From: Lamellibrachia satsuma
Lineage: Eukaryota; Annelida; Polychaeta; Sabellida; Siboglinidae
Length of the DNA: 64,000 nt
Assembly: GCA_033239005.1 (NCBI GenBank)
Contig: BSQZ01000034.1
Location: 2,109,001 to 2,173,000 of the forward strand
Reading direction: 5' to 3'
A program made the position numbers and the translations under genes. Shown here piece after piece: positions 1,321 through 64,000 of this stretch (the first letter of the stretch is position 1; each line of letters begins with the position of its first letter). Under the pieces are notes generated by a model that saw only the letters and a program-made list of their open reading frames with translations, was not told where the DNA came from and ran no database searches.

Positions 1321-2350
1321 ATTACAAGGTAACCAACCTGCCCAATCGCCACACCAAAGGCAAAGGGGTTGATAATTTCAATGCTGCCCTATTTTACAGG
1401 AATGTTATTGCACGCAATAAAATATGACATCACGTCTTCAGCAAAGAAAATATCAGTGGATGTACAACGCATGGGGAATTTACATGTGACATGTTTAATA
1501 ATGTGACCTTGATACGTTCACTCCCGCTACAGTGGTCACATTTTAAGAACATAATATATTATTAATGCAGTGTACCGGTAGTAGGCAGGCTATCGTTTCG
1601 TGCCATCTACTATTCTAGACACTGACCTAGATTTTGAAGTAGAAACTGTCAATAATATGATTGTGATTGGGTCATTAAAAATAGTTAAGGGGCAGCTCAT
1701 AGAATTTTGGCTGTATAATTTATACGCAACGATAAATTATCAATAAGTAAGGAATGATCTCAAAATATTGATGCTAGACAGTACACAAAATTTATCCCAT
1801 GGGGGGGTTAGCAGCTACTTTGCTTAGAGTCACACACACCGATGTATTTTCCCAAAGAACACTGTTTATTTGCCTACCACCATCATTCACAAGGACGCTG
1901 ACTTCGAGCGCTTGCAGGCTGTTTTGTGTTCATGACTGAAGCCCCACCTGGTGAATACCAAGTGGCCGATGTTGCCCACAGGTCGATGTAATTCAAAATT
2001 TCGTGTAGCGGGACGGGGGTGTGTGTTTAACTGACATCAATATCGTGTGGTGTCATGTAACAATAAAAAAAATTCCAATCAGCCCAGGTGGCCAGCCCGA
2101 GATTCCTGCCTGGGAAACAGGTCCAGGATACAGGAAGAAACTTGGTTTCCTATCTGACCACATATCCCTCTCCCCACTCTGTCAACTCTGATCTGGGATA
2201 CCCCCACTTGGGGGTCAGCGATACCCATTAGGGACCAATTAAATAACTGACAAACAACTGATATAAGGAATGCGGACTAAATGGTTTATCATTCTTTCTG
2301 TTTCTCACATTTTCCGCAGCCTTCTTCCCACTACTCCGCAGCCTTCCGCC
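1321..2350. other. No gene seen
   Basis: AT-rich sequence without a convincing exon on either strand. No recognisable element. Confidence 0.4.
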
Positions 2351-2351
2351 T

Positions 2352-4076
2352 GCTTCAATTACTTCCCCATGTCATCCCTGCCTCAATTACTTCCCCACGA
2401 TGGCCTTGCCTCAGTTACTTCCACACGATGGCCTTGCCTCAGTTACTTCCCCACGATGGCCCTGCTTCAGTTACTTCCCCACGATGGCCCTGCTTCAGTT
2501 ACTTCCCCACGATGGCCCTGCTTCAGTTACTTCCCCACGATGGCTCTGCCTCAGTTACTTCCCCACGATGGCCCTGCTTCAATTACTTCCCCACGATGGC
2601 CCTGCTTCAGTTACTTCCCCACGATGACCCTGCTTCATTTACTTCCCCACGATGGCCCTGCTTCAGTTACTTCCCCACGATGGCCCTGCTTCAGTTACTT
2701 CCCCACGATGACCCTGCTTCAGTTACTTCCCCACGATGGCCCTGCCTCAGTTACTTCCCCACGATGGCCCTGCTTCAGTTACTTCCCCACGATGGCCCTG
2801 CCTCAGTTACTTCCCCACGATGGCTCTGCCTCAGTTACTTCCCCACGATGGCCCTGCTTCAGTTACTTCCCCACGATGGCCCTGCTTCAGTTACTTCCCC
2901 ACGATGGCCCTGCTTCAGTTACTTCCCCACGATGGCTCTGCCTCAGTTACTTCCCCACGATGGCCCTGCTTCAGTTACTTCCCCACGATGGCCCTGCCTC
3001 AGTTACTTCCCCACGATGACCCTGCTTCATTTACTTCCCCACGATGGCCCTGCTTCAGTTACTTCCCCACGATGGCCCTGCTTCAGTTACTTCCCCACGA
3101 TGACCCTGCTTCAGTTACTTCCCCACGATGGCCCTGCTTCAGTTACTTCCCCACGATGGCCCTGCTTCAGTTACTTCCTCACGATGGCCCTGCTTCAGTT
3201 ACTTCCCCACGATGGCCCTGCTTCAGTTACTTCCCCACGATGGCCCTGCTTCAGTTACTTCCCCACGATGGCCCTGCTTCAGTTACTTCCCCACGATGGC
3301 CCTGCTTCAGTTACTTCCCCACGATGGCCCTGCCTCAGTTACTTCCCCACGATGGCTCTGCCTCAGTTACTTCCCCACGATGGCTCTGCCTCAGTTACTT
3401 CCCCACGATGGCTCTGCCTCAGTTACTTCCCCACGATGGCCCTGCCTCAGTTACTTCCCCACGATGGCCCTGCTTCAGTTACTTCCCCACGATGGCCCTG
3501 CTTCAGTTACTTCCCCACGATGGCTCTGCCTCAGTTACTTCCCCACGATGGCTCTGCTTCAGTTACTTCCCCACGATGGCCCTGCTTCAGTTACTTCCCC
3601 ACGATGGCCCTGCCTCAGTTACTTCCCCACGATGGCCCTGCTTCAGTTACTTCCTCACAATGGCTCTGCCTCAGTTACTTCCTCACAATGGCTCTGCCTC
3701 AGTTACTTCCCCACAATGGCTCTGCCTCAGTTACTTCCCCACGATGGCTCTGCCTCAGTTACTTCCCCACGATGGCTCTGCTTCAGTTACTTCCCCACGA
3801 TGGCCCTGCTTCAGTTACTTCCCCACGATGGCTCTGCCTCAGTTACTTCCCCACGATGGCTCTGCCTCAGTTACTTCCCCACGATGGCCCTGCTTCAGTT
3901 ACTTCCCCACGATGGCTCTGCGTCAGTTACTTCCTCACGATGGCCCTGCTTCAGTTACTTCCTCACAATGGCTCTGCCTCAGTTACTTCCTCATGATGGC
4001 CCTGCTTCAGTTACTTCCTCACAATGGCTCTGCCTCAGTTACTTCCTCACGATGGCCGTGCCTCAATTACTTCCAG
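2352..4076. repeat. 28-bp minisatellite, about 61 units
   Basis: Unit contains CAGTTACTTCCCCACGATGG then CCCTGCTT, with point variants (CTCT, TTAC/TTCA, TCAC). Because 28 is not a multiple of 3, each frame cycles through all three translations, so the long overlapping ORFs here are products of the repeat and not genes. It lies in a TBC1D12/14 intron or beyond the gene. Confidence 0.95.
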
Positions 4077-26577: not shown

Positions 26578-28277
26578 ATATTGACAATGTTGGCGTTTAC
26601 ACAATCAGTAGATCATTTGTTCTATTAATTTATCGCTCTCTGTGAGAATAAATACTTATATCCAATCAACAGTGTCATTTCACTAATTAGCAAAATGGCA
26701 AGTGGTAATTCATGTCCTCAATGGTTAATTGACACTTTTCCCACGTCCCACCCGAATGTTGTCCTGATGAAACAACCACTGCCCCCTTACTCAGTATGAC
26801 ACCCTATGTTCTACTGCAAACTGGTGTTAAACTCTATCTAAATTTCAATTATGGAAAATATCCTTCCAGTTCCAATGTAAAATATATTGATTATTACAGG
26901 TATGCAAGGAAGCAGCAAGCCAGTGATAGGCAACAGCTTAGATTCATATCAAGACTCTAATTAGTATATTATTATGACTTACCTTGTCAAAAACTCTGTG
27001 ATTCCTCTCCGTTTTGGCTTCGTATCAAATTGGTGCATCTGCTTCTCATCAAAGCCGCTGTCTTCGGACCCGAGCGTCTTTGATCTCTCGTATGTGTTAC
27101 CTGGATGCAGGTTAATATCGACAAATCGGTCATCAGGAAAATCAGCCGCTGTTTCCAGGGAGTCACCAATATCATCACTACAAGAATTAGCTGACACTGA
27201 TAGGTCTGTGCCCGTACCAAGACTAGAGATACTGGAAAACGATGATGCATCTGTCTTTGACAACCGATCGCAGCACTGATCATTGGCCATGATGTCACTC
27301 CGGCGTACGTCAAACGTCGTTGTTTCATCGACACAGCTGTCATCATAACTGTCATTCTGTAACGATTCTGTCATGTTTGGTGATGTTTGCTCCTGTTCTA
27401 CGTCAACCACAGTTTGACAGCTGCTCCGGTTGGAAACGTCCGATTCCTGGCTGAGGGTGGTGCCAGACAGACCGTCTTCGGTGTCGATATTGGCGCGCCC
27501 TGCTGGAGTCCGTAGTGCCACACAATGGGTGTTACCCCCAGTGGCAGACGATATGTTCCCAGTCTGAGTTATCTGACATGAGTGATTCTCTGTTATCATG
27601 ACAGGTGACAAGCCATCACCGTCACAATCACCTAACGAATTCTGTTGCCCTGTTGACTCTGTCCGTGTGTGTGAAATACTCTGCAACACACCTGACAGGT
27701 GGTTGTGGTTTGGACTATTATTTACAGTTTCTTGGGCGGAACACAAATGCTGGCTGTCTTTCCCCTGGTTTGCAAAGCTGACCTCATCCAGCGTACTCTC
27801 AAGGGCTTTCAGTTCCGACAGTGATCCATTTTTTCCAGGACAGATTGTGACCTGTGAAAAGCCAAATTTGTCGGGCTTGCTGAAGATGTCCGACAGACTA
27901 TTCCTGATGTTGGCTTCGTTCACTGTATGTACTTGATCTGTGTCGATACTAACGTTAAGATTCGGCAGGCTGGTTGACAATTCGTGTGTCGAACGCAGCG
28001 ACACATTATCACCCTGCATCCTACTGACACGGCATTCGCAATCGAACTCTGATAATGGGGTGTCGTTGTAGCTTACCTCATCGCCGGGTACCGATTTGTA
28101 TTTCCTCGTCTCGTTTTTAAATGTTTCTGACAAATCGCCGATATCAAGAAGTCTGTCCATGGGCAGTTCCTCACTGATCACATCCACGCCAACGTTCAGT
28201 GGTGATTCAGTGGACGGGTGTTCGTTCGACATAACGGGCATCAATTCTGCACCCCCGAATCCGTCACGCACCCCCAT
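13999..28277 (-). CDS. TBC1D12/14: TBC1D12/TBC1D14-family Rab-GAP gene, 5' two exons (gene span in window)
   Basis: 5' part of a gene of the TBC1D12/TBC1D14 family. Known family role: TBC-domain proteins acting on Rab-dependent membrane traffic; vertebrate TBC1D14 binds RAB11 and ULK1 and restrains autophagosome formation from recycling endosomes. Seen here: exon 1 (28277-26983) ends in phase 2 at a GTAAGT donor, and exon 2 (14265-13999) begins with the single base that completes the codon, giving a continuous ITEFLTR-GFFSRKPK junction. The predicted N-terminus has ISSLGTGTDLSVS (family: VSSLGTELSTTLSVS), LGWKFFGRVP at about residues 454-463 and LSTTALILEQRP at 509-520, all hallmarks of the segment before the coiled coil and TBC domain. 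The TBC catalytic part was not found, so it presumably lies left of position 1. The single invertebrate gene probably predates the TBC1D12/TBC1D14 split. Head to head with UIMC1, 2.4 kb apart. Confidence 0.85.
14333..15258. repeat. ~59-bp hairpin-forming tandem repeat, about 15 units
   Basis: Each unit begins ACATCGGG and ends CCCGATGT, and carries CTTCTTACATGGCTTCTCGT. Unit junctions therefore read CCCGATGT-TATAAC-ACATCGGG, an 8-bp stem. Units vary by loss of G's and of GGCCA. The array starts about 67 bp upstream of the TBC1D12/14 exon 2 acceptor. Confidence 0.93.
15260..16778. other. Intronic, no gene seen
   Basis: Intron 1 of TBC1D12/14. Contains a poly-G run (about 15947-15960) and a 108-codon ORF (16066-16392) with no recognised motif. 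Confidence 0.4.
16780..18115. repeat. 31-bp minisatellite, about 43 units
   Basis: Nearly identical units GTAAGGGAGAGCAACCACTC plus ACTAGCCAGCT. Variants are rare (ACAAGCC, ACTCGCC, CAGGTG), showing recent homogenisation. The plus strand carries a donor-like GTAAGGG in each unit, but the host gene is on the minus strand. Confidence 0.96.
18116..24378. other. TBC1D12/14 intron 1, no gene seen
   Basis: AT-rich intronic DNA with a (TG)n run near 21058-21074, (TA)n near 21590-21670 and a 25-bp CAGATTCACCATGATCCGTC duplication at 20987-21040. The ORFs 19290-19553 and 19611-19940 have no recognised motif. Confidence 0.4.
21362..21436 (+). mobile_element. SINE fragment
   Basis: GATTGCAGCATGGCTGAAT...GAATGAACAGGTCT matches the inner part of the SINE at 10555-10830, in the opposite orientation. 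Confidence 0.5.
24387..25620. mobile_element. Complete hAT-type non-autonomous DNA transposon (1,234 bp)
   Basis: Left end CAGGGGTGGGTTCAATTACA and, on the opposite strand, right end CAGGGCTGGGTCCAATTACA form 20-bp TIRs with two mismatches. The element is flanked by a perfect 8-bp target duplication, CATATTCC, at 24379-24386 and 25621-25628. Subterminal regions are packed with AATTACA repeats on both sides, as hAT transposase-binding regions often are. No transposase ORF remains. Confidence 0.92.
25629..26400. other. Intronic, no gene seen
   Basis: A 72-codon minus-strand ORF (25713-25931) is Cys-rich at its end but has no recognised motif. Confidence 0.35.
26411..26500 (+). repeat. Dispersed repeat, copy 2
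   Basis: CAGATGGCAAGTGGCCTAGG...TTATCGAGAGTCCAACAG, homologous to 6826-6905 and, inverted, to 43295-43350. A (GT)n run follows at 26548-26569. Confidence 0.6.
26983..28277 (-). CDS. TBC1D12/14: TBC1D12/14-like exon 1 (start codon to donor)
   Basis: Coding exon of 431 codons plus 2 bases. The ATG at 28277 has A at -3 and G at +4, and the exon ends in ACAAG before GTAAGT. It encodes a low-complexity, Ser/Thr/Asp-rich, probably disordered N-terminal region with many SxS and SDD clusters, as in TBC1D14. The end reads KRRGITEFLTR, comparable to the FxxFFARNLLARK stretch of the vertebrate protein. Ignoring the donor, the frame meets a stop within the intron at once. Confidence 0.85.
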
Positions 28278-28558
28278 TGTTTTGGTGCCAAACTCAAAGG
28301 TGATGACCGGACCTCAAATGAAAGGCTGTTGTTACACATAACGGCACAGTTAAGCCCCTGCGCGAAACACTTCGTGCCCTTTAAAGAACAAACACAGAAC
28401 GCTGTACATTGTACACATTCCTACGCGAGTACTGTCCTGTCTAGCAGTTGAAACACTTTTCGGAAAGACGATTTCTGTGACGCGTTTGTCGTAAATAATG
28501 CTTCTACCTCCACCCGCCGGACGGCCATTACCACATATGCAAATGGTGAGGGGGGATG

Positions 28559-39600: not shown

Positions 39601-42384
39601 ATCCCTCGTGGCTCGGATGGTCATGTTGATGTCATTTTTGCAAAACTTTTATTAGGAAATTTGCAATATTTATGGCATTGTGAGTATTTGCAATTCTTCA
39701 AAACTATTGCAGTGCTGTTATTTTTTTCTCAATAAAAAAATACTTTGTCCTAAGAATCAATAATATCATAAGAGTATTCATCATGTATATCTTTTTGAAA
39801 GTATTGTATGTATGTAGAGGTGTACAATACTTTAAAAAGTATTTTGTCCATCCGTGAATTTGCTGTACACAGGTGTTTAGTTTGGGAATTTTCTTATTCC
39901 ATTTCAGGATGACAAGATTCTTGGGAAAATTGCACCCGAGACGCCGACACGAAAACTAATCAATAAAAGGTATGTCTTGTACATAGATGTGCCAACATTT
40001 CTTTGCAGAACCTTCAAAAGACTTGTTTATTAAAGGCTAAATGTGAGGATCTATGCTGTTAATAACATGGCGCAAAGCATTTTTCCGAAGCTAAAAAATC
40101 ATTAAGGTAAATTTTCTATATTAAAAAATAATTTTCATAGGATTTGTTTTGTTGTTGAACTTAAAAAAGTTATGTTAAGCAATCTGTGTTTATGTCCCTT
40201 GCAAAAAGATTAATATTTGAATTGATTAAAATGTTAGTTTCTGATTAGCTGTTTTAAATTAGAATTTGTGTCACAGCTCATCATAAACTGACAATAAATT
40301 ACTGTCATTTTAATGGGTTTACAAAATTATTTTTATTACTAAAGATTGTTCTATAATATTATAACATCCCAATGACATACATATGCACTATGATTGTCTT
40401 TGTTTCAGGGCACTGAAGAGAAAGGTATGTAAGATCTTTACAAAAAAATTAAAATTATTAAAATTTCTTGCTTCCATACCTCTCGCCCTACTCTAAGTGA
40501 AATTTCAGAAATTTTGGAAACATGATTAAAATAAAAAATGGAATTTATTATAATATTTTATAAAACATGGATGCCTGCTAATACGGTGTGTGGTGGAAAA
40601 CTTGAAATCAACAAGGCCGGTGTAATGTTTCTTACCGTCTTTTATTATGTATATTTAAGATAACGACTTAATTCATAGTAAAAAATATCTTCTAAATTTC
40701 CATGTGCTTCGTTTTTGCGCAAAGAATAATTAGTACTGTAAATTTATTTAGCAGTATATGTAATTTTTTTTGCATCATTAGCAAGTAAATTTACGTTTAT
40801 TCTGCCGGTTCTTTTTTCCATTCAGCGCATTGAGAGTCGTCGCTACTTCACTCCACCAGGTGTCTCCACTGGTCATTGTACACAGCGAATCATAGAGTTC
40901 TTCAGGGAGGAACAGACGAATATGCGACGCCTGCAGGATCGCTCTGTCATCATGGTTCCGTGGGGCCCCCCGGTAAAAGCAGGCTGTCACATGACCAGTA
41001 CTATCGAACTTCGACGAGCTGAAGAGGAAACGTCTACTGGCACAGCAAGATGTCTCCGAGATCACAATGTCAAAGTTGAGGGCCCAAAAAGTGACGAAGA
41101 ATTTTGTACGGTTAGACAGAACATGTCGCCCAGGATACTTTCAGACACTGATAGTGACAATATAGATAAAGATGTTGATTGGCTGCCCGACTTGAAAGAG
41201 CGTTCAAAAAAGCCAGTGCAAGCTCACACACGAAAACCTGCAAATAAAAGTGCAAAATCAACAAAAACTAAGGAAAAGGTTCCACAGGATGAGAATGAGA
41301 ACATTGAAAGTATCCCAGACACGCCGCCTGGTGGATGGCTGAAATCGCCCACTGCGCAGAAGGTGCAGTCTACTGGAAAGACCAAGAAGCAGCTGGATCA
41401 CGAAGAGACATTAAACAGCATCTTGATGCAAAGTCAAGCAAAGGTCGAGGGTGTGGTTCCTGGCAAAACCACTAGGCGGCTTGGTGTAACCAGGCGGCGT
41501 GGAACAGGGAACCGGAAAACTGGGCGTGATACCAATAGGCAGGGGAGATTAAAGTGTCCGAAAGAAGTCCCACGGAATCTGTTTACAGATGATGAAAATA
41601 GCAGTGGAGATGATGGTGGTGTGAAAACAAAAATAAAATGTGAGCATGGTGGTACGAACCGTCAAGAAGACACGGGAAAGAAGGTTTGGAATGTGCATTT
41701 GGAAGAACATTCAACAGCCGCTAGTGATTATTTAAAACCGACAGCTAAAGTTCAACGGAAACCACCAGCAAGACAGCCGGGTGATAGGGTTGAGGGCGAG
41801 GGAAATTTGGTTGAATCCAAGGCGGTTGCCAAGGAGTCCGAGGCGGTTGCCATGGAGACCAAGATGGAGACCAAGGCGGTAGTTGTGGGGACCAAGGTGA
41901 GGCCTCGAGGACGTGTGGTTTCGGCTGTTGCTAACATTGCGCAATCAGTTGTTGCTGGGGCTGCCTCTTTGTTCCGGGGGAAAGCCACGCGAGGGAGAGA
42001 GGAGGGAACAGATGGGACTAAGGGAATGTTGATGGAGATAAGCAGTGATGAAGAAGAAGACACCGGGGAACCAGAACAACAGCAGCAGAGAGAGGAGGGA
42101 AAAACAGCTGATTTAGAACAAAAACAGGCGTCACAGCAACAGGTACGTTTTATATTTGAATATGGAGACTATTATGTTCAATTTCATTTATTATAATTTT
42201 AGGGGTTTTTTGCAGCAAAATTTGAATAGTAATTTTTGCCACACCTGGTATGTTTCATCCAATTCTTCAATTTCCCTGGCTCATCTATATAATAATAATA
42301 ATACAGCATTTTAAAAGCGTTAATTCCCGCTATATGGATATAAAATACTATTCACATGGTATAAAATACTATTTAAATATAAAA

Positions 42385-42433
<49 letters not shown>

Positions 42434-45400
42434 TATATGTTGAAAGCTAACTCTCGATATAAGTGGTAGATAAAGCCACAATAAATAAATTAATTAAATT
42501 ACTTTAAAAATAAATAAAATAATATTTAGAAAAACTTAAAATCTGGTGAGAATCCTAATGCATCATTAATGTCTATCACAAATAGTCCATCCATAGTGTC
42601 CATCACATATTCTATTCATTTACGTATATTTGAAGTGACTAATAAAAAGGTGAGTCTAAAGACCGTCTGACTTCCCTAATGCAGTCTGAGTCATCCACCA
42701 TCTGACTTCCCTAATGCAGTCTGTGAGTCGCCTCACTGTTTCCACTTTGTTGCCCGGCACATCTGGATTGTAAGATGCATATAGCTGAATGTCATCCGCA
42801 TATTTGTGGTAATGTACTCTATGTCTTCTGAATATGCGCTGCAGTGATGTGGTATACAGAGTAAATATAATTGGCCTATATAAATATAAATATTCCTTGT
42901 TTGAAGCTGTTATTTATTACGGCCACCAAATAGGGAATGTGGATATGCAGTGTTCTCTTCAGGAGTTTGGTTGTACATTTACTGCTGACAAGAAGTCATA
43001 TGACGTTAAACGTTAAGAATTCCTATTAGGCCCTGCCAGTCTCAGCAAAGTATGTACAAGGAATTGATTTCTCCACTCATTTAAACCTCTCAATACTTGT
43101 GAGATTGACATTTTCAAACACTTTGAAACCTCAAAACATATAAAATATTTGAAACCTTCAGATAGTTTGCAGATTAAAACATTCACAAACTTTACCACTA
43201 ACAGAGGCAGTAGATGGAACAAATGATCTACTGATTATGTAAATGCTAGCAGCGTGTATGTTTAAAAACAAAATTAAAAAATATCCCAGATGAATAATCA
43301 TTGGCCTCTTGATAAGCCAATGACTTCCTTGTCCACTTGCCATCTGATTTTTTTACTTTTGATAGCCATTTTGTTAAATCTTGCATTCATGGCTACCAGA
43401 TCAACATGATGTCTCTTTCTATTACCTCAGAAACAAGCCGAATGTCCTATGTGCTTCAAGTATTTCTCACTAGATGGCATCGAGGAGCATGCATTCAACT
43501 GTCAAGGAGAGACTGTTTCGTCCAGCCCTCAGCACGAAGGTTGGTTCATTTCTCAACAACTGTTTCATGGGTATTTAAATTTTCTACCTATTACGATTCA
43601 TACAATTATGTATTTTTAAATACCTCATGATTATTATGGAATTGCATTTGATGTTTTTCAGTGTAAAAATTAAAAAGCATGTTAAAAAAATTTTCAGTGT
43701 AGCCCCAAAGAACCGTAAAACTCTGTCCTCAATTCATTCGAATCAGGACCGTAGATTGTAGCGTTGTAGCACAAATTACTGTCATATTCTAAATGAATGT
43801 GATACAATGTATGACGTGTCTGTGTATGACATTGGCCGTGTGTGGCAAGCTGGTTTGTCTAACGTAACAATTTCAAATGTGAACATTTTATCGGAAATGT
43901 TAGACATCAGAAATGGTTTTAAGACATGTAATATTTTAGACGATGATGATATCAACTGTATTATTACAGACATTACTGTATTTTAAAGAATATACAATTG
44001 CCATTTTTAATGTGCAAAAATAAAGATTTTATTATAGATGATCAAAACTTTAGTGTGTGAATTGTTTAAGTAGTCTGCAGAGTCGGTTTAATAAAAGATT
44101 GCTTGCTTTTGTTAAAATCATCGATCGAAAGAATTGACTTGATCATTAGATCAGATAACTTGCACAAGTGTAAATAGCCTTAGGCTGTTGTATAGAGCCA
44201 GACTACAGTTTTTACTGGATTCGGTAAAAAAATTATTTTATAGTTTGTCTGATGATATCACCAAAACTAAATAACAAATTTGTGCAAAAACATATCATGG
44301 TGGATAGGTAAATTTTTTGCGAAATGATTCTGAAATGAGACTAGGGAAAAATCGAATTGAGGAAGGACCTTTAATTCACTACAAATTCTGATGAATATAA
44401 TTTTATCTTTTTAGTTGCCTCATGATTATGACCGATTTGCATTAGTTGTTTTTCAGTATTAACATTAAAAAGCATATTAATATAATACAGATTTGTAATT
44501 CGTTGTGAACATTATGGAATAGTAAAACATTGACGTCTGTTCAGTAGGTGGATTAATATGTTATGTTTTTGAAACTTGTCGACTTATGTTTTCTAGCCGT
44601 GTTTTGTAGGAGCTCCACCAGAGGGAACCACTGTTGCACATGTGTTGCCAGTAGGAAGGTATGTATGGGAGTATGGTACAGGGCACGGACCACAGTCAGA
44701 ATCCATCCGCCATTACATACATAAAGAGTCCCAAGGAAAAAATTCATTGTGCAGATAGGGTTTATTTGTGAGAGCAGAAATTGTGTGCATGAGTGAGTGG
44801 AAGTGATGTTTTTGTGCACAGTAGCATCTAAGCTTTGAAATGATGCCATTTGTCAGTTGGTATACCGGTTGCGTAAGGACACAGTGGCTGTTAGGCAGGA
44901 TGTACTCATATTTGAGAAACCGGGGAATTTCATGGCAGAAATGCACGGGCCTCATGCTTTGAAGCAATTTGTGCGAAAAGGAGGTATGTCATTTTCACGA
45001 ATTTCGCACACCAGGTGTCTTAGTGGGTCTGTCATTTTCTGTGAATTTTTAAAAAAAATTGTAGGATAAATTTTCAATGTAGGCGCAAGAATGTTATAAT
45101 GGTCGTCTATGGGAAAAGTGACTGTGGTCCGTGCCCAATATGAAATTTTGACTGGCTTGTTACCAAGGCAACGCATCGTGGTAAAACAAGCATGGATGAA
45201 ATTTTTTGTGAGAAAATATAGGTGGAGAATCAAGTTTTACACTGTCTTGTCAAGAAATGACAGTTGCATGTTATGGACTGGGTGTTTTAAAGCATATTGT
45301 ATAGGCTAGCTAGCCCAGTATGGTGTCATATGTGTGAAATTTCCAGCTGGGAAATGGAAGACAGTTCTTGTACATAGATTAATGTATATGCTACACCATA

Positions 45401-48400
45401 ATTTATGAAAGATTCCTAGACATCTAAGTTGTAGCCATATTTGCAATGTCAGCTTGTGTGTTAATCCACAGCATATGATACTGGAGCCACTGCATGTAAA
45501 CAACAATAGAAGACAGTGTGTGAGAGAGCAGCATTGTTTTGGTCATGGTCATTACCCTCAGTGTATTTAGAAATTGTGCAGTTGAACAGGTGAGAGACAA
45601 ATCAAAGAATTAATTAAGCCAGTCTTATCATTACTCACCAGTTTGTGTGTTTTTGCATGCTCAGCTGCTTGCCTGTCTGTCTGTGTGTCCATGCTTCATT
45701 GTGCTCGCAGGGCTATGAGGTAATCCTCTCTTGAACTCCCCTCACATACATGTGGGGAGAGTGTGTGGCACACTTCCACCTTTACTAATAGAAGCTTTGC
45801 TTGTCTCCAATTTCCACAGTAGAGTGTCCCCCGCTCCATAATTCAGCCTGTCAATGGTTGCACAGGCACATCCCTTGACATTGCGACTGAAGTTCACATT
45901 TTTTGGTAGAGAAGCACCCAATCCTCTGTTCAGGCCATCATTTCGGTTTGTGTTAAGACACAGTTTTGTTAACGCTTGTGCAGTTCCCCCTTATCTTAGA
46001 TGCAGAATCTTTCTCAGTGTAATCCTGTCTCTACTGGTCATGTTGAGATAGTGGAGAGTACCTGTCTGCAGGTACATTGATTTTTTCCACCAGTTTCCCT
46101 TCCCACCTGAGCAGGCTATAGAGGAGTACCTGCATATCTTGCAGTCACCTCCATAGCAATCCAATGTCAATGTTGCTGTGCAGTTATCATGCCCTGGACA
46201 GGTGACATAAAATCCTCTCCTTCAAAATGAAGCCCCCAAGGTGCACAATTTATTCTGTATGTGTAGAACCACAATATCCTGGCACAGTGTGCCCCTTCTG
46301 AAAGCCACATCTCCTCTCATGTTTGGCTATTTGGAACTTCGCCACACCTTCACTTTTCCTCTCCATGCTGATATCTGTATCAGAGTCAAAAACTTTTCCT
46401 ATCTGACTGATCTGGGAGCAGTCAGTCCAACTGACATTTAAGCAATGGCCATAATTTTAGTGGGGTAAACCACTTGTCTGTCATGCTGCACAGCTATTGG
46501 CTGAGAAAATGCCCCAATGTAGATTCTGAATAGAATTTACAACCCCCTGTAGTTGAAATCTGAGCAAAAAGTAGGCTTATCGTCACTGTAGTTGCAACAG
46601 GAGACACTCAAAAGCCCCAAACAGGCAGCATTCCATTCTATCTCGTTGACAGGCAGTTGGCACCTTCACTGACTTGAAATTGGGTCATCCGTGTCAGAAA
46701 TGCCAAATGTTCACATGAAAACTTGTCAGATATATAGCTTGTTTTCACACATACCATAATTCGTTGTAGTTTGAACGCTCAATATTATCTATCAATGTTG
46801 TGAAATACACAGAAATGCCTGCTTTTTGCCCAAAAACAGTGCATATTAAAAAAAAATTAAAAAAATATTTTAATACAAAATTAGTTGACAATTTTAGTGT
46901 TGTATTGATGAAAATACCCCATATTTTGTGAAACACTTGTAAGATTTTCTATATCTCTGGCACAGCAAGCAGTGTGGGCTTTATGACTAAAGTGCATATG
47001 TGCAACTCAACCCACTTGAAATTCTTCCCCTCACATACGGGGGCATGTCTTGGTGACATATCAATTAATGTGTTGCATTGCGATGTGGATTTCCTTCTGT
47101 GATTTATCGAGATAAAGGTTTTTCTTCGATTTGGTATAACTTTCGTGACGGTTTGTAAGATGTCGGAAATTAATTAGGGCACGGACCACAGTCAGAATCC
47201 ATCCGCCATTACATACATAAAGAATCCCAAGGAAAAAATTAATTGTGCAGATAGGGTTTATTTGTGAGAGCAGAAATTGTGTGCATGAGTGAGTGGAAGT
47301 GATGTTTTTGTGCACAGTAGCATCTAAGCCTTGAAATGATGCCATTTGTCAGTTGGTATACCGGTTGCGTAAGGACACAGTGGCTGTTAGGCAGGATGTA
47401 CTCATATTTGAGAAACCGGGGAATTTCATGGCAGAAATGCACGGGCCTCATGCTTTGAAGCAATTTGTGCGAAAAGGAGGTATGTCATTTTCACGAATTT
47501 CGCACACCAGGTGTCTTAGTGGGTCTGTCATTTTCTGTGAATTTTTAAAAAAAATTGTAGGATAAATTTTCAATGTAGGCGCAAGAATGTTATAATGGTC
47601 GTCTATGGGAAAAGTGACTGTGGTCCGTGCCCTACAGCCTGGAATATTCTATATGACCTCTACAGTATGTGTATGTCAGACCACTAGATAGCACGATTTA
47701 GACTCACTGAGAAGGGCACAGACCACAGTCGGTATTTATCTGTTGTTACCCACAGTTACTAGGAAATGGTGGATTGCATGTGATGGGTGAATTTTAAAAA
47801 AAACTTGCATCAGATGAGCGAGTGTTTAAAGTGAAGGTTTCCTGTACCACTGCATTAGAGCTTTCAATTGACGGTAATGAACCACTGACCACTCGCATAA
47901 TAACAGAAAATGCTATAAAGGCACCAGTGGCATAAGTGACAGTTTTTTAAGTTTGTAACCCCAGAATCTCTATTTAGGTCTAGAAAAACATTAATTAAAT
48001 TTAATCTGTTAACATATTGCTTGTAGACTCGCACGGAAGCCATTGAGGCAGTACGGGAGACAGCGCATAGCAAGAGGACAAACTGACGAAAAATTTGACT
48101 CTATCCTCTGTACGTCCAGCGATGCAGGTAGGGTGGAGGGCATAGTCATTAAAATTGATGCCATTTATGAGAGCTTGGATGCTTCCACAACACTTTTTGC
48201 TGATGCTTTGACTGGAAGAAGGTGTTGGTGATGCAAAGACCATGAAACGTGCATAACTCCAATAATCTTTGTCCGTTGTCGTTCATCCTCCCAGTGCCGT
48301 GGTGTCCAATGCAGGACGGCCATGATTGATGGTCTGAGCCTACTCTGGCATTAAAGTCGCCAAGAAGGATGAGCGGCTCAACTTTGGGAATCTTGCCAAT

Positions 48401-50849: not shown

Positions 50850-53715
50850 TAACATCATGACCTTGCAGACGCTCGGATAGCCCAGAGAATGTGGAGATTC
50901 TTTCTGACTCTGAGCTTCCTGCCTCTCCTACTGGGAAGAGAAGAAAGAGGGCTGGTGGCCCAAATGAGGAAGGAGAGACTGTAAAACGGTGAGTTGTTTG
51001 TTTTTTTGCAATTCTAGGTATCAATCTCCTAGCAGACTCATATAGTATCTTGCCTTTGATATGACTCCTTACACAAAGCATTCTATTTTAAGCTATCTGA
51101 GTTCAGCTTTATCCCGTATCAACCTCCTCTTCCTCCCTCCCCTCTCCCCCTCTGTATCTCCTCTCTTTCCCCTCAGTAACTTCCCTTTTTCCCTTCTGTC
51201 TCTCCCCCTCCCTCCGTCTCTCCCCCTCCCTCCCCTCTTCCCCCTCTTTCACTCTCACATTACCTCTCTTCCTTCCTCCCCCTCGCTATCTCCCTACTCT
51301 ACCCTCTTTCCCTCCTCTCTCCCAACCCTTTATTACATTTTATTTATAGTTGTGTTAAAAGCACTTAGAGTATATTCATGTTATTCACCCATGCCCCATC
51401 TGTTCCAGTCACCCATGCCCCATCTGTTCCAGACACCCATGCCCCATCTGTTCCAGACACCCATGCCCCATCTGTTCCAGTCACCCATGCCCCATCTGTT
51501 CCAGTCACCCATGCCCCATCTGTTCCAATCACCCACGCTCCATCTGTTCCAGTCACCCATGCCCCATCTGTTCCAGTCACCCATGCCCCATCTGTTCCAG
51601 TCACCCATGCCCCATCTGTTCCAGTCACCCATGCCCCATCTGTTCCAGTCACCCATGCCCCATCTGTTCCAGTCACCCACGCTCCATCTATTCCAGTCAC
51701 CCATGCCCCATCTGTTCCAGATACCCACGCCCCATCTGTTCCAGTCACCCATGCCCCATCTGTTCCAGATACCCATGCCCCATCTGTTCCAGTCACCCAT
51801 GCCCCATCTGTTCCAGTCACCCACGCTCCATCTGTTCCAGTCACCCATGCTCCATCTGTTCCAGTCACCCACGCCCCATCTGTTCCAGTCACCCATGCCC
51901 CATCTGTTCCAGTCACCCATGCCCCATCTGTTCCAGTCACCCACGCTCCATCTGTTCCAGTCACCCATGCCCCATCTGTTCCAGATACCCATGCCCCATC
52001 TGTTCCAGTCACCCATGCCTCATCTGTTCCAGTCACCCATGCCCCATCTGTTCCAGTCACCCATGCCCCATCTGTTCCAGTCACCCATGCCCCATCTGTT
52101 CCAGTCACCCATGCCTCATCTGTTCCAGTCACCCATGCCCCATCTGTTCCAGTCACCCACGCTCCATCTGTTCCAGTCACCCATGCCCCATCTGTTCCCG
52201 ATACCCATGCCCCATCTGTTCCAGTCACCCACGCTCCATCTGTTCCAGTCACCCATGCCTCATCTGTTCCAGTCACCCATGCCCCATCTGTTCCAGTCAC
52301 CCATGCCCCATCTGTTCCAGTCACCCATGCCTCATCTGTTCCAGTCTCCCATGCCTCATCTGTTCCAGTCACCCATGCCCCATCTGTTCCAGTCACCCAT
52401 GCCCTATCTGTTCCAGTCTCCCATGCCTCATCTGTTCCAGTCACCCATGCCCCATCTGTTCCAGTCACCCACGCTCCATCTGTTCCAGTCACCCATGCCC
52501 CATCTGTTCCAGATACCCATGCCTCATCTGTTCCAGTCACCCATGCCCCATCTGTTCCAGTCACCCATGCCCCATCTGTTCCAGTCACCCACGCTCCATC
52601 TGTTCCAGTCACCCATGCCTCATCTGTTCCAGTCACCCATGCCCCATCTGTTCCAGTCACCCACGCTCCATCTGTTCCAGTCACCCATGCCCCATCTGTT
52701 CCCGATACCCATGCCCCATCTGTTCCAGTCACCCACGCTCCATCTGTTCCAGTCACCCATGCCTCATCTGTTCCAGTCTCCCATGCCTCATCTGTTCCAG
52801 TCACCCATGCCCCATCTGTTCCAGTCACCCATGCCCTATCTGTTCCAGTCTCCCATGCCTCATCTGTTCCAGTCACCCATGCCCTATCTGTTCCAGTCAC
52901 CCACGCTCCATCTGTTCCAGTCACCCATGCCCCATCTGTTCCAGATACCCATGCCCCATCTGTTCAAACCTGTTCAGTCAGGCACTCATTGAAGCACATG
53001 TGTTGAGATGTCTCGAGAGCACAGAGACTGACAAACGAGTGACAAGGACCAGGAGGCATCCTGACCGCAACGGCATCCACACCATCTCCAGTCTCGGCGG
53101 TGAGTAATCAGAGTTTTGTTTTTGACAGGACAGTTTCTGACCCTATTAAATTAATTTATCTCTTAGGATTCCAGATTATATTTGGAACAAGAAACATACT
53201 CTACAGCACAATTTCAAAATAATATTAGCCGAGTTGCCCAGCATTGCATGATAGAAAAAGCCAGCAACTGCAAGAACCTATGAATCCTTGCACCACCCAG
53301 TCATGTTTTTGTAGGGCAATGGCAGTGGCAATGATGGCTTCTACATCATGCCTCAAACATCGTGTACCACTGCCGGTTTCACAAAGCATTCGTACCGTAC
53401 AAAGGACCTTATGTGTACATTTGACATAGATCACGTAACTGAGCAATCATAGAAAACACGCATAGCGTTGTGAACAATTGTACATAAGTGAAAACCACCA
53501 TTGTTCCAAGTTACATAATCTACGTCACACATTCACGTAAATTCCTTTGTAAGATGTCCACCCCCAGGAATTTTTAATATATGAACCATCCCCAGGGCCC
53601 CCGAGAACACCTACAAAATGTCAGCCCCATACATGCAAGACTGATGGAGATATGAGGGAACATACAAACAGACATGCATACAGACAGATATGTATGCATG
53701 CATGTAGGCTGGCAG

Positions 53716-56459: not shown

Positions 56460-59400
56460 TCTGTCAAATATAGGGCATGCCTGTCCCTAACTCCGCCATG
56501 GACGGTCCCAAGCCCGGCTGAGAAAGGAGGAGGGTTGGGCGTGGGGCTAGCACCCCCACCCTGTAAAGAAACCCAACGCTACAGAAACATTCACAACAAT
56601 TAAAACTACGACGTCTGTCCTGGAAGAGGTAGGGCCTGGTTTACCAGGGCGCATGAAGTGTTGCGGTCAAAGCCGAAAGGAAGCCACAATGCCGACTACT
56701 CTTCTTTCGACCAGGAAAAATTTAAACATCGGCACATGGAATGTGCGAACAATGTACGAGGTGGGGAAAACTGCCCAAGTGGCAGCAGAAATGCGGAGAT
56801 TCAACCTCGCTCTACTCGGGCTCTGCGAAACCCGATGGACCCAGTCAGGACGACTGCGACTAACAACAGGAGAGCTTATGCTATACTCCGGACACGAGGA
56901 AGATGATGCCCCTCACTCAGAGGGGGTTGCCCTCTTATTGGGGAAGGAGGCACAGAGAGCACTTATTGGCTGGGAAGCCAGAGGACCGAGGTGCTTAACA
57001 GCATCCTTTAGAACAAAGAACAAAAAGATTAAAATGAACATAGTGCAGTGCTACGCCCCAACCAACAACAAGACTGACGAAACCAAAGATGAATTCTACA
57101 ACCAACTGCTTGATATCATGAGCAATTTAGGGGATAAAAACATCAACCTGATTATGGGAGATTTCAATGCTAAGATTGGATCGGACAACCAAGGATATGA
57201 AAATGTGATGGGAGTTCATGGGCTGGGTGTGATGAATGACAATGGGGAGCGGTTTGTGAATGCTTGTGCAATAAACAACATTGTGATTGGGGAAGTGTGT
57301 TCACACACAAAAGAATACATAAGGCGACATGGGTATCTCCTGACCAAGTCACTGAAAATCAGATAGACCACATCGGCATAAACAAAATGTTTAGAAGATC
57401 ACTACAAGACGTGCGTGTGAAGAGAGGTGCTGACGTTGCGTCTGATCACCACCTAGTAACAGCCAGGCTAAAACTCAAGCTAAGAAGAAATGGAGTAGAA
57501 CAAGAAAGACAAAAGGCAAGATATAATGTGGATTTCCTGAAGGACCCAAGCACAGCAAAAGAATATAAAGTTGCATTAGCTAATAGATTCAAAGTCCTGC
57601 AAGAACTGTATGATGAAGATGAGGAGTAGACATCAACAGCCAATGGAGTCACATCAAAGATGCAGTAAACAACACATGCGAAGAGGTAATTGGAAGAAGA
57701 AACCCCAACAGAAAGACTGGATTTCAGTAGAAACTATGAGGAAAATACAGACCAGAAGAGACAAGAAGGAAGCAGTCAACAGCAGCCGCACAAGGGCGGC
57801 AAAGGTAACAGCTCAGAAAGAGCACACTGCAGCAAATAGAGAGGTGAAGAAAAGTGTCAAAACAGACAAAAGGAACTTCGTGGAGGGACTTGCACAAGAA
57901 GCAGAAAAGGCAGCAGCTAGCAGGAACATGAAGCAACTTTACGATACAACAAGGAAGTTAGCTGGAAAGTTTAAGAAATCAGAGCGGCCAATCAGAGACA
58001 AAAATGGGATCGCCCTGATGTCGGCAGACAAACAGCTTAACAGATGGGCAGAGCATTTTGAAGAGCTGCTCAACAGTCCAGTACCGCAGAATCAACCAGA
58101 CATCCAACCAGCTGAGACAGATCTCCCAATAGACTGTAATAAACCCACTAGAGAAGAGATAAAAAAGGCAATCGCACATATGAAAAATGGGAAAATAGCA
58201 GGCCCTGATGGTATCCCCGCAGAAGCACTAAAGGCAGATATAAATACTTCAGTAGAAATGCTGTACAGTCTTTTTGAGGAGATCTGGGAAAAAGAAGAAA
58301 TTCCAGCAGAATGGAAGGAAGGTTACCTTATCAAGATTCCCAAGAAAGGAGACCTGAGCCGCTGTGATAACTACAGAGGAATCACGTTGTTGTCAGTACC
58401 TGGGAAGATTCTAAACAGGATAATCCTAGAGAGAATGAAAGGCAAAGTGGACCAAACTCTGCGTGAACAGCAAGCAGGCTTCAGGCAGGACAGATCGTGT
58501 ACTGACCAGATTGCAACACTGCGAATCATAGTGGAACAATCCATCGAATGGAACTCATCCCCTATACATCAACTTTGTTGATTACGAAAGCCTTTGACAG
58601 TGTGGACAGGGAGACACTCTGGAAAGTGCTAAGACACTATGGGGTGCCCAAGAAACTAGTAAACATGATCAAAAACTCCTATGAAGGAATGTCATGCAGA
58701 GTTATTCATGAAGGTCAACTTACAAAGAACTTTGAGGTTAGGACGGGGTGAGACAGGGATGCTTACTGTCACCATTCCTCTTCATTCTAGTCATAGACTG
58801 GGTCATGAAAACAGCAACCAAGGAGAAGCGAAATGGAATCCAGTGGACGATGCTGACCCAACTTGATGACCTGGACTTTGCGGATGACCTTGCACTCCTG
58901 TCTCACAGCCATAGGCAGATGCAAGACAAAACAACAGAACTGGCATTGATTTCAGGGCGGGTTGGGTTGAAAATCAACAAAAGGAAAACAAAGATCCTGA
59001 GAACAAATGCTACTTGCGAAACACCAATCATGCTTGAGGGAGAGACACTGGATGAGGTCAAAGACTTCAGATATCTAGGCAGCATAGTGGATACGCATGG
59101 AGGGACAGAGGCAGACATAAAGAAAAGGATCAGCAAAGCAAGGGTAGCTTTCCACCTGTTGAGAAAGGTGTGGAAGTCAAAAGTAATTGGAGAAACCACA
59201 AAAATACGCTTGTTTAACACAAATGTAAAGTCCGTGTTGCTGTACGGAGCAGAAACATGGCGAATAAACAAGACCACACTGAAAAGGATCCAGACATTTG
59301 TCAACCATTGCCTGAGAAGAATTCTCCGAATACACTGGATGGACAGGGTGAGCAACAAAGACCTCTGGGATAGAACACACCAAGCCCAAATAGAGATAGA

Positions 59401-59672
59401 GATCCTCAAGAGGAGATGGGGATGGCTTGGCCACACCTTGAGAAAGCCAACCACAAACATAACGAGACAGGTCCTGACATGGAACCCCCAAGGCAAGAGA
59501 AAGAGGGGGAGACCAAAAAACACCTGGCGGCGTGACCTCGAGGCAGACATCAAACAAACAGGGAAGGGCTGGCAACAACTGGAGAGGATTGCCCAAGACA
59601 GGAGGCGCTGGAGAAATGTTGTGGATGGCCTATGCTCCAAGAGGAGTTAAGGGCCTAAGTAAGTAAGTAAGT
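56460..59672 (+). mobile_element. Near full-length LINE (RTE-like), frameshifted
   Basis: A 5' leader (TAGCACCCCCACCC, TACCAGGGCGC) is followed by one long ORF with an AP endonuclease (NIGTWNVRTMYEVGKTAQVA; CETRWTQSG; QCYAPTNN; MGDFNAKIGSDNQGYENVMG; later DVASDHHLV), a linker, and a reverse transcriptase ([84 protein letters not shown]), ending [16 protein letters not shown]...[14 protein letters not shown] at 59650. The 3' end is a (TAAG)n tail. Five or so frameshifts kill it. The clade is judged by resemblance to elements mis-named craniofacial development protein 2-like; RTE is tentative. Confidence 0.88.
56653..59650 (+). pseudogene. LINE endonuclease/reverse-transcriptase ORF, broken
   Basis: The coding line moves between frames near 57300, 57622, 57714, 58575 and 58748, judged by where the expected LINE protein continues in another frame. 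Each shift looks like a 1-2-base indel, several in A or G runs (for example GATTACGAAAGCC before AFDSVDRE). The catalytic FADD and endonuclease motifs remain readable. Not a host gene. Confidence 0.85.
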
Positions 59673-61768: not shown

Positions 61769-64000
61769 TGGTACCAGAAGTGGGGTTAGACCTTTTTAAC
61801 TCAAAAAATTATAGGCAGGACCAAAATTTTAAGTTAATTTTTGATAAGACGACTGGCCATCCAGGTTAAAGAGTATGGACCAGGAGGATATCGAAGAAGT
61901 GCGCGATGAGCTAGAACGAGTATTTTACAACACTGGATCTACAATCAGCGTATAACCAGGTGCAGATGGAACCAGATGACCAGCACAAAACGGCATTTAC
62001 AACACCATTCGGTCTACATGAATTCACCCGAATGCCATACGGCTTATGCAATGCCGCTGCAACGTTCCAGCGCCTCATGCAAATGACCTTCAGTGCTGAG
62101 ATGTTTGAAATATTATTAGTCTACTTAGATGACATTGTCATCTTCTCAAAGAGTATCGAAGAACACCTGAAGAGGCTGGATGCAGTATTCACCAAGTTAC
62201 GACAGTTCGGATTGAAACTGGAGCTGAAGAAATGCAACTTCTTTAGAAAGGAAGTGCTGTACTTAGGTCACCTGATCGGTGCTGACGGAGTAGCAACGGA
62301 TCCGTCCAAGATAGCAGTCGTCGAGAAGTGGCCTGTCCCGAAAACTCTCAAGGACTTACGATCATTCCTTGGCTTTGCTTCCTACTACCGAAGATACGTA
62401 CCTAATTTCACGCAAATCGCGAGTCCACTACATCGAGTGGTAACCGATGCTTGCAAGGCGGGAAAAGGGAAACGAAGAACCAACAAAATGTACGGCTTAG
62501 AGAAATGTTGGACTGACAAATGTGAGACAGCATTCAAGGCTTTAAAGACAGCACTGACGACAACACCAGTACTAGGATTCGCCGACTATAATCTGCCATT
62601 CATTGTTGAGACAGATGCATGTGACAAGGGGCTGGGAGCTGTCCTAAGCCAGATGCAAGATGGAAAACTGCGTGTGATAGCATATGCTAGTCGTAGTTTA
62701 CGGGGTGCTGAGAAGAATGATGTAAACTATTCTGCAATGAGATTGGAGACACTAGCCTTAAAATGGGCTGTGACCGAAAAGTTCCGCGATTACCTGCTTG
62801 GTGGAACATTCACTGTTTACACAGACAACAATCCACTGACGTACCTCAACAAGAAAGTAAAGCTGACAGCTGTTGAGCAAAGATGGGCTGCGTCTTTGGC
62901 ACCATTCAACTTCGACATACGGTACCGCCCTGGTCGCTGTAATGCTAATGCTGACGGATTGTCACGCCTTAGTGAATGCAACAAGACATGCATCAACATC
63001 CCCACTGTCGAAGCTAGCCTTGCAATGGTCACACAGACGTCTCACTTGCCAGTGAATCTGAGGGTAGCGGTGATGGAGGAATCCGCCAATCGTGAGATTG
63101 CTAAGTGTTGTGAATACAAGGTAAATACAGATCCCGCAGAACAGGCGACAACAACATTGCCAGGACTGCCGAAAGAGGCATTGGGAGAATTACAGGCTGC
63201 TGATTCCACCATTGGTAGACTCATCTATTACCGGAAGATAGGAAGACGCCCGACAGTGGACGAGAAATCATCTGAGACAGCAAATGTGATCCAGTTGGTA
63301 CGCCAATGGGATCACATTGTGGAAACAAATGGAGTTCTCTACCGGCGCGTGCTAGACTCTAAAGTTGGCGAAATTGATCAATTGTTGTTGCCAAGATGTT
63401 TGCAAGATAACGTACTAGAAAGTTTGCACAACAAACAAGGTCACCAAGGAGTGGAGAGAACAGAGAAACTGGTGAGAGCACGCTGCTACTGGCCGACGTT
63501 ACACAAAGATGTACAAACATGGATTAATCTGTGTGAGCGTTGTACGCTTGGTAAATTTCCCGCAAAGAAGATGAGAACACCACTGGGAAGGCTCATTGCT
63601 ACACGACCCCTAGAGGTGGTCGCCATCGATTACACAGTATTAGAGCCCTCGTCAGATGGTCGGGAAAATGTACTCATAATCACCGATGTCTTTACAAAGT
63701 TCACAGTTGCAGTAGTAACCCGAAACCAGAAAGCAGAGACTGTAGCCAAGGCACTGGTTACACAATGGTTTGAACCTTACGGTATTCCGCAGAGGATACA
63801 CAGCGACAATGGGCGCAACTTTGATTCAGTGCTAATAAGTGAACTTTGCAAACTATATGGAATTCAGCGTTCTCATACTACTCCCTACCACCCAGCTGGA
63901 AATGGCCAATGCGAGCGGTTTAACCGGACACTGCATGATCTACTGAGAACATTATCGGAGAAGAAGAAGAGAAGGTGGGCTGAGCATGTACATGAAGTGG
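61769..64000 (+). mobile_element. Ty3/gypsy retrotransposon internal region, 3' truncated by window
   Basis: After the primer-binding site, ATG at 61875 opens 15 codons ([15 protein letters not shown]) and then the sequence passes straight into reverse transcriptase at [11 protein letters not shown] (61921) in another frame. RT, RNase H and integrase follow without a stop to the right edge. gag, protease and the first RT blocks are missing, so this is an internally deleted copy. The element continues to the right of the window. Confidence 0.88.
61915..64000 (+). CDS. pol: Ty3/gypsy Pol fragment: RT - RNase H - integrase (partial both ends)
   Basis: 695 codons open from just after TAG at 61912 to the window end. 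[32 protein letters not shown] and the YLDD catalytic box (62122-62133). Connection: [28 protein letters not shown]. RNase [42 protein letters not shown]. Integrase: HNKQGHQG with CERC as the HHCC zinc module, then catalytic Asp (63628), Asp (63805, HSDNG) and Glu (63913, CERFNR), a D-x58-D-x35-E triad. The active-site residues are intact, but the missing upstream part makes this copy non-autonomous. It is not preceded by a usable start in frame. Confidence 0.93.

Follow-up and report, generated by a model that had tools for sequence, protein, structure and literature searches.

The 64-kb stretch of DNA analysed here (the window) carries on its + strand a modelled gene with two C-x2-C-x11-H-x3-C fingers, which a motif scan places at 43443 and 52952. 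The first finger, CPMCFKYFSLDGIEEHAFNC, lies in an exon at 43431-43539 and the second, CPICSNLFSQALIEAHVLRC, in exon H (52945-53099, 155 nt), which has a modelled boundary and the donor gtgagt. Between them is exon G (50869-50988), which encodes about 40 aa, has the acceptor ttgcag and the donor gtgagt, and ends in codon phase 2, with two bases (CG) carried over at its donor, 50988. The model also includes a long exon E (40826-42142, 1317 nt), which suggests that the gene as modelled tolerates a long exon. The likely donor of the 43431-43539 exon is out of phase with exon G, and phase gaps occur in the model from F to G and from H to I; one exon is, therefore, probably unmodelled or misplaced in each of these intervals. 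Exons F, G, H, and I gave four matches when searched in the genome (E up to 0.001), all of which are exons at this locus, and the assembly shows one copy of the locus. Because these exons match only here, the assembly has no intact gene at another place from which this one could have been copied. A retrocopy that could reveal the splice junction is likewise absent from those four matches.

The first-pass annotation identified this gene as UIMC1/RAP80. The finger pair and a weak finger resemblance stand in favour of that identity, and the lack of a significant match stands against it. As in RAP80/UIMC1 of the BRCA1-A complex, two C-x2-C-x11-H-x3-C fingers occur in one gene model; unlike that protein, the model has no significant sequence match to RAP80, and no canonical UIM was found by motif scan on the + strand of the whole window. 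The best RAP80 match is that of exon H to chain 9sqy_I (E = 0.15, third of five PDB matches), in which the RAP80 finger is aligned over the Cys pair and on into the basic stretch behind it. This match is outranked by a designed multi-finger protein (2i13_A, E = 0.00055, a sum of weak pieces) and by a consensus finger. The joined finger region reaches RAP80 at E = 3.7 (tenth of eleven matches), exon E alone and the 838-aa joined model have no match, and candidate N-terminal and middle pieces, including candidates for the Abraxas-interacting region, have no RAP80 match. Scanning both strands of the window for the UIM motif gave one match, on the minus strand, and looser patterns are absent from the + strand between 15000 and 43000. 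The start of exon A is presumably loosely UIM-like, and its sequence search was without a match. Pfam gave nothing above cut-off for the six exon pieces scanned, A, E, F, G, H, and I. RAP80/UIMC1 is, on these sequence comparisons, a plausible but not an established name for the gene.

Exon H is entered by a tandem array of 24-bp units. Tandem Repeats Finder (TRF) counts 65.9 copies between 51385 and 52965, at 92% matches and 0% indels. Cutting it in register yields 66 units of 15 types, and the commonest type, TCACCCATGCCCCATCTGTTCCAG, accounts for 28 of the 66. Sixty-five units with TCACCCATGCCCCATCTGTTCCAG as consensus (51385-52944, + strand) precede the modelled exon; the last unit, ATACCCATGCCCCATCTGTTCAAA (52945-52968), is exonic, is in register with the array (ATACCC...TTCAAA), holds the first half of the finger and continues into CPICSNLFSQALIEAHVLRC. 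Of the 65 in-register acceptor positions, which extend over 1536 nt (64 units) from exon start 51409 to exon start 52945, 62 retain an AG, and each of these AGs fits the phase left by donor 50988. Read from that donor to 53099, all 62 joins are stop-free, and the frame at 51359 is open until a stop that ends at 53107. Because the unit is stop-free and its 24 bp are divisible by three, the other two + frames and one minus frame are likewise open along practically the full length of the array. The first-pass annotation had described about 65 units of 24 bp in a stop-free frame from 51359 to 53099, an AG in the right phase for the donor in almost every unit, a 64-unit span between the first and last acceptors and a last unit that runs into a complete finger, and all of this agrees with the present measurements. 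Its further statement that the units read CPICSSHP again and again was less exact: the second Cys is present in 65 of the 66 units and the first in 53.

An open frame across such an array has no value as evidence of coding because random 24-mers of matched composition are usually open. For random 24-mers with the base composition of the array unit (20,000 trials), the share with no stop in any + frame was 63% and the share with one or more open + frames was 99.9%, and coding inferred from the open frame was rejected against this null. Ten substitution types relative to the consensus occur among the 65 units that precede the exon copy. One of the ten is synonymous in the gene frame, compared with four of ten in each other frame, and this count departs from chance in neither direction (probability of one or fewer, 0.10-0.35). 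Compared with the consensus in this way, the 65 units show no trace of purifying selection in the gene frame; 13 of all 66 units have lost the first Cys, and one has lost the second. We take this as an indication, short of proof, that the octapeptides are not being preserved as a protein sequence. The AG itself is conserved barely above the average position, with three departures over its two positions and 61 over all 24. In single-sequence folds, which are a weak test, a 135-aa piece that includes part of the array has a mean pLDDT of 46; a 51-aa piece folded in the same way has a mean of 57.

Acceptors were scored with a weight matrix built from generic frequencies. On this matrix, the 62 array AGs score between 7.3 and 9.1, and eight further acceptors in the gene model score between 4.9 and 9.3. 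The acceptor at 52945 scores 9.1 on the same matrix, is equalled by six other array sites and is thereby among the best seven of the 62. With array scores so nearly equal, the last acceptor is indistinguishable from the rest, and no sequence feature therefore forces its use. Unit positions 4-22 are 79% pyrimidine, and TCAC, a motif that fits the branch-point core, stands at the unit start in 53 of the 66 units, 20 nt before the AG. Upstream of the array, a CT-rich tract of 242 bp (51104-51345, + strand, 88% pyrimidine) looks like an old intron end that would now lie about 1.6 kb from the exon. Within this tract, a candidate exon start behind an AG at 51177 has the highest score on the generic matrix (10.2) between 51000 and 53040 and is out of frame; an exon starting at 51350 would also be frame shifted, with a stop at its seventh codon. 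Normal mRNA most likely joins 50988 to a 3′-most acceptor, chiefly 52945 or its nearest neighbours, so that the array would be spliced out. We infer the use of 52945 because the resulting exon has 155 nt and an intact finger; the size of exon E (1317 nt) means that length is no argument against a long exon that starts early in the array. Leakage to earlier array acceptors would add eight residues per unit and leave the frame unbroken. A 24-nt period and stop-free units make such leakage frame-neutral, which would weaken selection against array growth, and the gene may tolerate mis-splicing into the array.

The relationship between the array and the exon bears on where the repeat came from. Five of the 66 units, the exon copy counted, have no mismatches to the first 21 bases of the exon, and exon sequence beyond the unit (52966-53031) is absent from the array (none of ten stepped 12-mers found). 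Three array units were searched against the genome (735 Mb in 279 contigs), with very common words skipped so that counts are lower bounds. At least 30 matches were obtained; among those listed, 28 are at this locus and two are in another contig, C156, at 78-81% identity. The array in C156 has a 23-bp unit with a sequence different from that of the 24-bp unit. It occupies L009:3786-4251 and reads TGTTTGTTCACCCACGCCCCTCC; its resemblance to the 24-bp unit appears to be due to chance. A dispersed satellite was rejected as a source, given that the three-unit search found, among the matches listed, only this locus and the different 23-bp array. The other finger of the gene, at 43443, has the same spacing as that in exon H and a similar CPMC start, and no array is present at its exon among the TRF arrays. 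Exon-identical units, locus-limited matches among those listed and the array-free other finger together make it most likely, as far as sequence can indicate, that the array grew out of the exon edge. The earlier proposal that the 3′ splice site and the first finger half were tandemly duplicated to give the array is thus supported by the exon-identical units (five of 66), and by the locus-limited matches listed and the absence of the ten downstream exon 12-mers from the array. The reverse order, in which an intronic satellite donated the CPIC half of the exon, could draw on the exon start being one array unit, but it is very unlikely: the other finger has equal spacing and a similar CPMC start without a TRF array, the exon copy aligns with the RAP80 finger from the Cys pair on (E = 0.15), and no dispersed family is evident in the genome among the unit matches listed.

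Growth from the exon edge could have proceeded as follows. The duplicated block would have run from CAG or TTCCAG at the end of the intron through the opening 18-21 bases of the finger exon. At the last unit, TTCCAG and TTCAAA are 24 bp apart, and the first duplication was probably slippage between these two TTC triplets, one in the intron end (TTCCAG) and the other in the exon (TTCAAA); this step is a reconstruction because the ancestral intron end is not preserved. The exon start (CCCATGCCCCATCTGTTC) is itself pyrimidine-rich, so each new AG would have landed behind a ready polypyrimidine tract, and the TCAC in most units, with its fit to the branch-point core, would make every copy a plausible acceptor. 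Later expansion to about 65 copies would have occurred by unequal exchange or slippage, leaving the old CT tract stranded about 1.6 kb upstream of the exon. A seven-unit block recurs 21 units on, and a lag of 21 has the highest z (3.3) among 49 lags; this is moderate evidence, which fits block-wise growth.

The region is rich in minisatellites: TRF lists 35 arrays of at least 150 bp, 18,762 bases in total, across 264 kb made up of the 64-kb window and 20 nearby stretches of 10 kb each (10,000 bases read N). A 28-bp array at 2349-4074 has 61.6 copies of a unit with TTCAG or CTCAG behind a partly pyrimidine-rich stretch. Further large minisatellites occur between 4303 and 18115 (TRF: 62 bp x 14.9, 25 bp x 27.3, 59 bp x 16, and 31 bp x 43.1). 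Two stretches with near-identical open frames lie between the finger exons (44553-45069 and 47061-47565) and are apparently copies of one repeat. On the minus strand, a 444-aa open frame at 26979-28313 is perhaps an exon of another gene. Downstream of exon H, a LINE-like element lies in pieces at 56551-59650, with endonuclease, reverse transcriptase, and DUF6451 domains above the Pfam cut-off, and frames at approximately 61900-64000 resemble what we take to be the reverse transcriptase and integrase of an LTR retrotransposon.

Repeats of intron-exon boundaries have been called mirages in amphioxus, and Canestro 2002 is said to be the founding paper on them. Amphioxus mirages are minisatellite-like tandem duplications of an intron-exon boundary and have been described in Adh3, TnC, the globins BflGb6 and BflGb9, and PGBD5 (PMC3087553, PMC3902484). 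In BflGb6, the mirage comprises the 3′ end of an intron and the 5′ part of an exon, and many mirage units have AG/GT signals (PMC3087553, PMC3902484). Unit sizes range from 10-72 bp in Adh3 to 150-160 bp in BflGb6, where six and three units occur, and intron gain has been proposed for amphioxus mirages (PMC3087553). Regular splicing is reportedly undisturbed by the Adh, troponin C, and PGBD5 mirages (PMC3902484), and the same is reported of amphioxus boundary repeats that include those of the globins (PMC3087553, PMC3902484). The host group reported is the cephalochordates (PMC3087553, PMC3902484); in the genome analysed here, a scan of seven loci for motifs of mitochondrial proteins, as a guide to the phylum, gave no match. 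Boundary repeats are a kind of structure already described in lancelets.

The present array shares with amphioxus mirages a tandem repeat that spans an intron-exon boundary, here a modelled one, and includes exon sequence, with a splice signal copied in the units (here an AG at 62 of 65 positions). Turnover and homogenisation of the cluster, by which mirages are also recognised, are seen here as 15 types in 66 units and, as moderate evidence, the copied seven-unit block. Differences in length between haplotypes or cells are also expected of mirages; one copy of the locus is present in the assembly. The array differs from the amphioxus cases in its stop-free 24-bp unit, which is an exact multiple of the codon length, in its copy number of about 65 and in its acceptors, of which 62 of 65 are in the phase of the donor. 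Judged from sequence, the array is a mirage by anatomy, and its whole-codon period and 62 frame-neutral acceptors set it apart. No such array outside lancelets was recognised in the literature, among matches listed by title and the start of the abstract, which is no proof of absence. Coding tandem repeats of variable number offer another comparison. Prawn Rlec lectins have a coding VNTR of 30/33-bp units in exon 2, for which an origin by slippage has been proposed (PMC7536079). As in Rlec, tandem units lie in frame in a coding gene; unlike the Rlec repeats, which are described as exon-internal and transcribed, the repeat here carries a splice acceptor, and its coding use is only possible. Rlec was, accordingly, rejected as a precedent for a series of acceptors, its repeats lying inside exon 2 (PMC7536079).

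Taken as a whole, it is probable that the array is a boundary minisatellite, or mirage, copied from the splice site and the finger half, that it is mostly intronic and that leakage into it is frame-neutral. The first-pass annotation went further and saw an in-frame ladder of acceptors that could add 0 to 64 octapeptides, each with a CxxC pair, to a protein whose length would vary with copy number if early acceptors were used. The frame neutrality of such a ladder is confirmed arithmetically, but acceptor use and a metal-binding or length-tuning role of the octapeptides are unsupported: openness is what chance gives, nine of ten substitution types are nonsynonymous, and 13 of 66 units lack the first Cys. 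That many array acceptors are taken, with a series of protein lengths in which most of the added octapeptides have a CxxC, is possible but doubtful. The 62 in-phase, stop-free acceptors with near-equal scores on the generic matrix, the branch-like TCAC in 53 of 66 units and a gene model that includes a 1317-nt exon would all accommodate it; the absence of a sign of coding constraint, the low-confidence fold of the 135-aa piece (mean pLDDT 46 from a single sequence, a weak test) and the undisturbed splicing reported for mirages elsewhere argue against it. A variant of this reading, in which choice among about 62 near-equivalent 3′ splice sites is stochastic, protein length varies in eight-residue steps, most with a CxxC, and copy-number alleles shift the distribution, is improbable; if it were true, one minisatellite would adjust how far apart the two fingers lie in a repair adaptor.

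In a further reading, sites that precede the array, 51177 and 51350 among them, might often serve as acceptors, and the array would thereby lower the functional output from the gene. The site at 51177, in an 88% pyrimidine tract, scores higher than any other from 51000 to 53040 and shifts the frame, and that at 51350 shifts the frame and leads to a stop at the seventh codon. This reading is nevertheless quite unlikely, since the scores come from a generic matrix, which leaves the use of 51177 or 51350 a prediction, and 51177 implies an intron of only 188 nt. It is also very unlikely that the gene is decaying or mis-modelled, with the finger exon unexpressed. The breaks in phase in the F-G and H-I intervals of the model, and the lack of a Pfam domain above cut-off in any of the six exon pieces scanned, are in keeping with decay, but the exons are open and coding-like, have consensus splice sites and, for F, G, H, and I, match here only.

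The locus bears on how splice sites are chosen and how introns change. Splice choice among many near-identical acceptors is, in our judgement, hard to study outside engineered minigenes. Here about 62 nearly equal, frame-neutral acceptors occur naturally in series between a single donor and a single exon, and they can therefore reveal whether the first or the last AG is favoured by the spliceosome, and whether exon length plays a part. The locus also illustrates how slippage by 24 bp at an exon start rich in pyrimidines can yield a new acceptor that is itself open to copying. Such a copyable acceptor would be a step towards intron growth, or towards intron gain as proposed for amphioxus mirages (PMC3087553). 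If the host is not a lancelet, mirages would be more widespread than described in the papers found.
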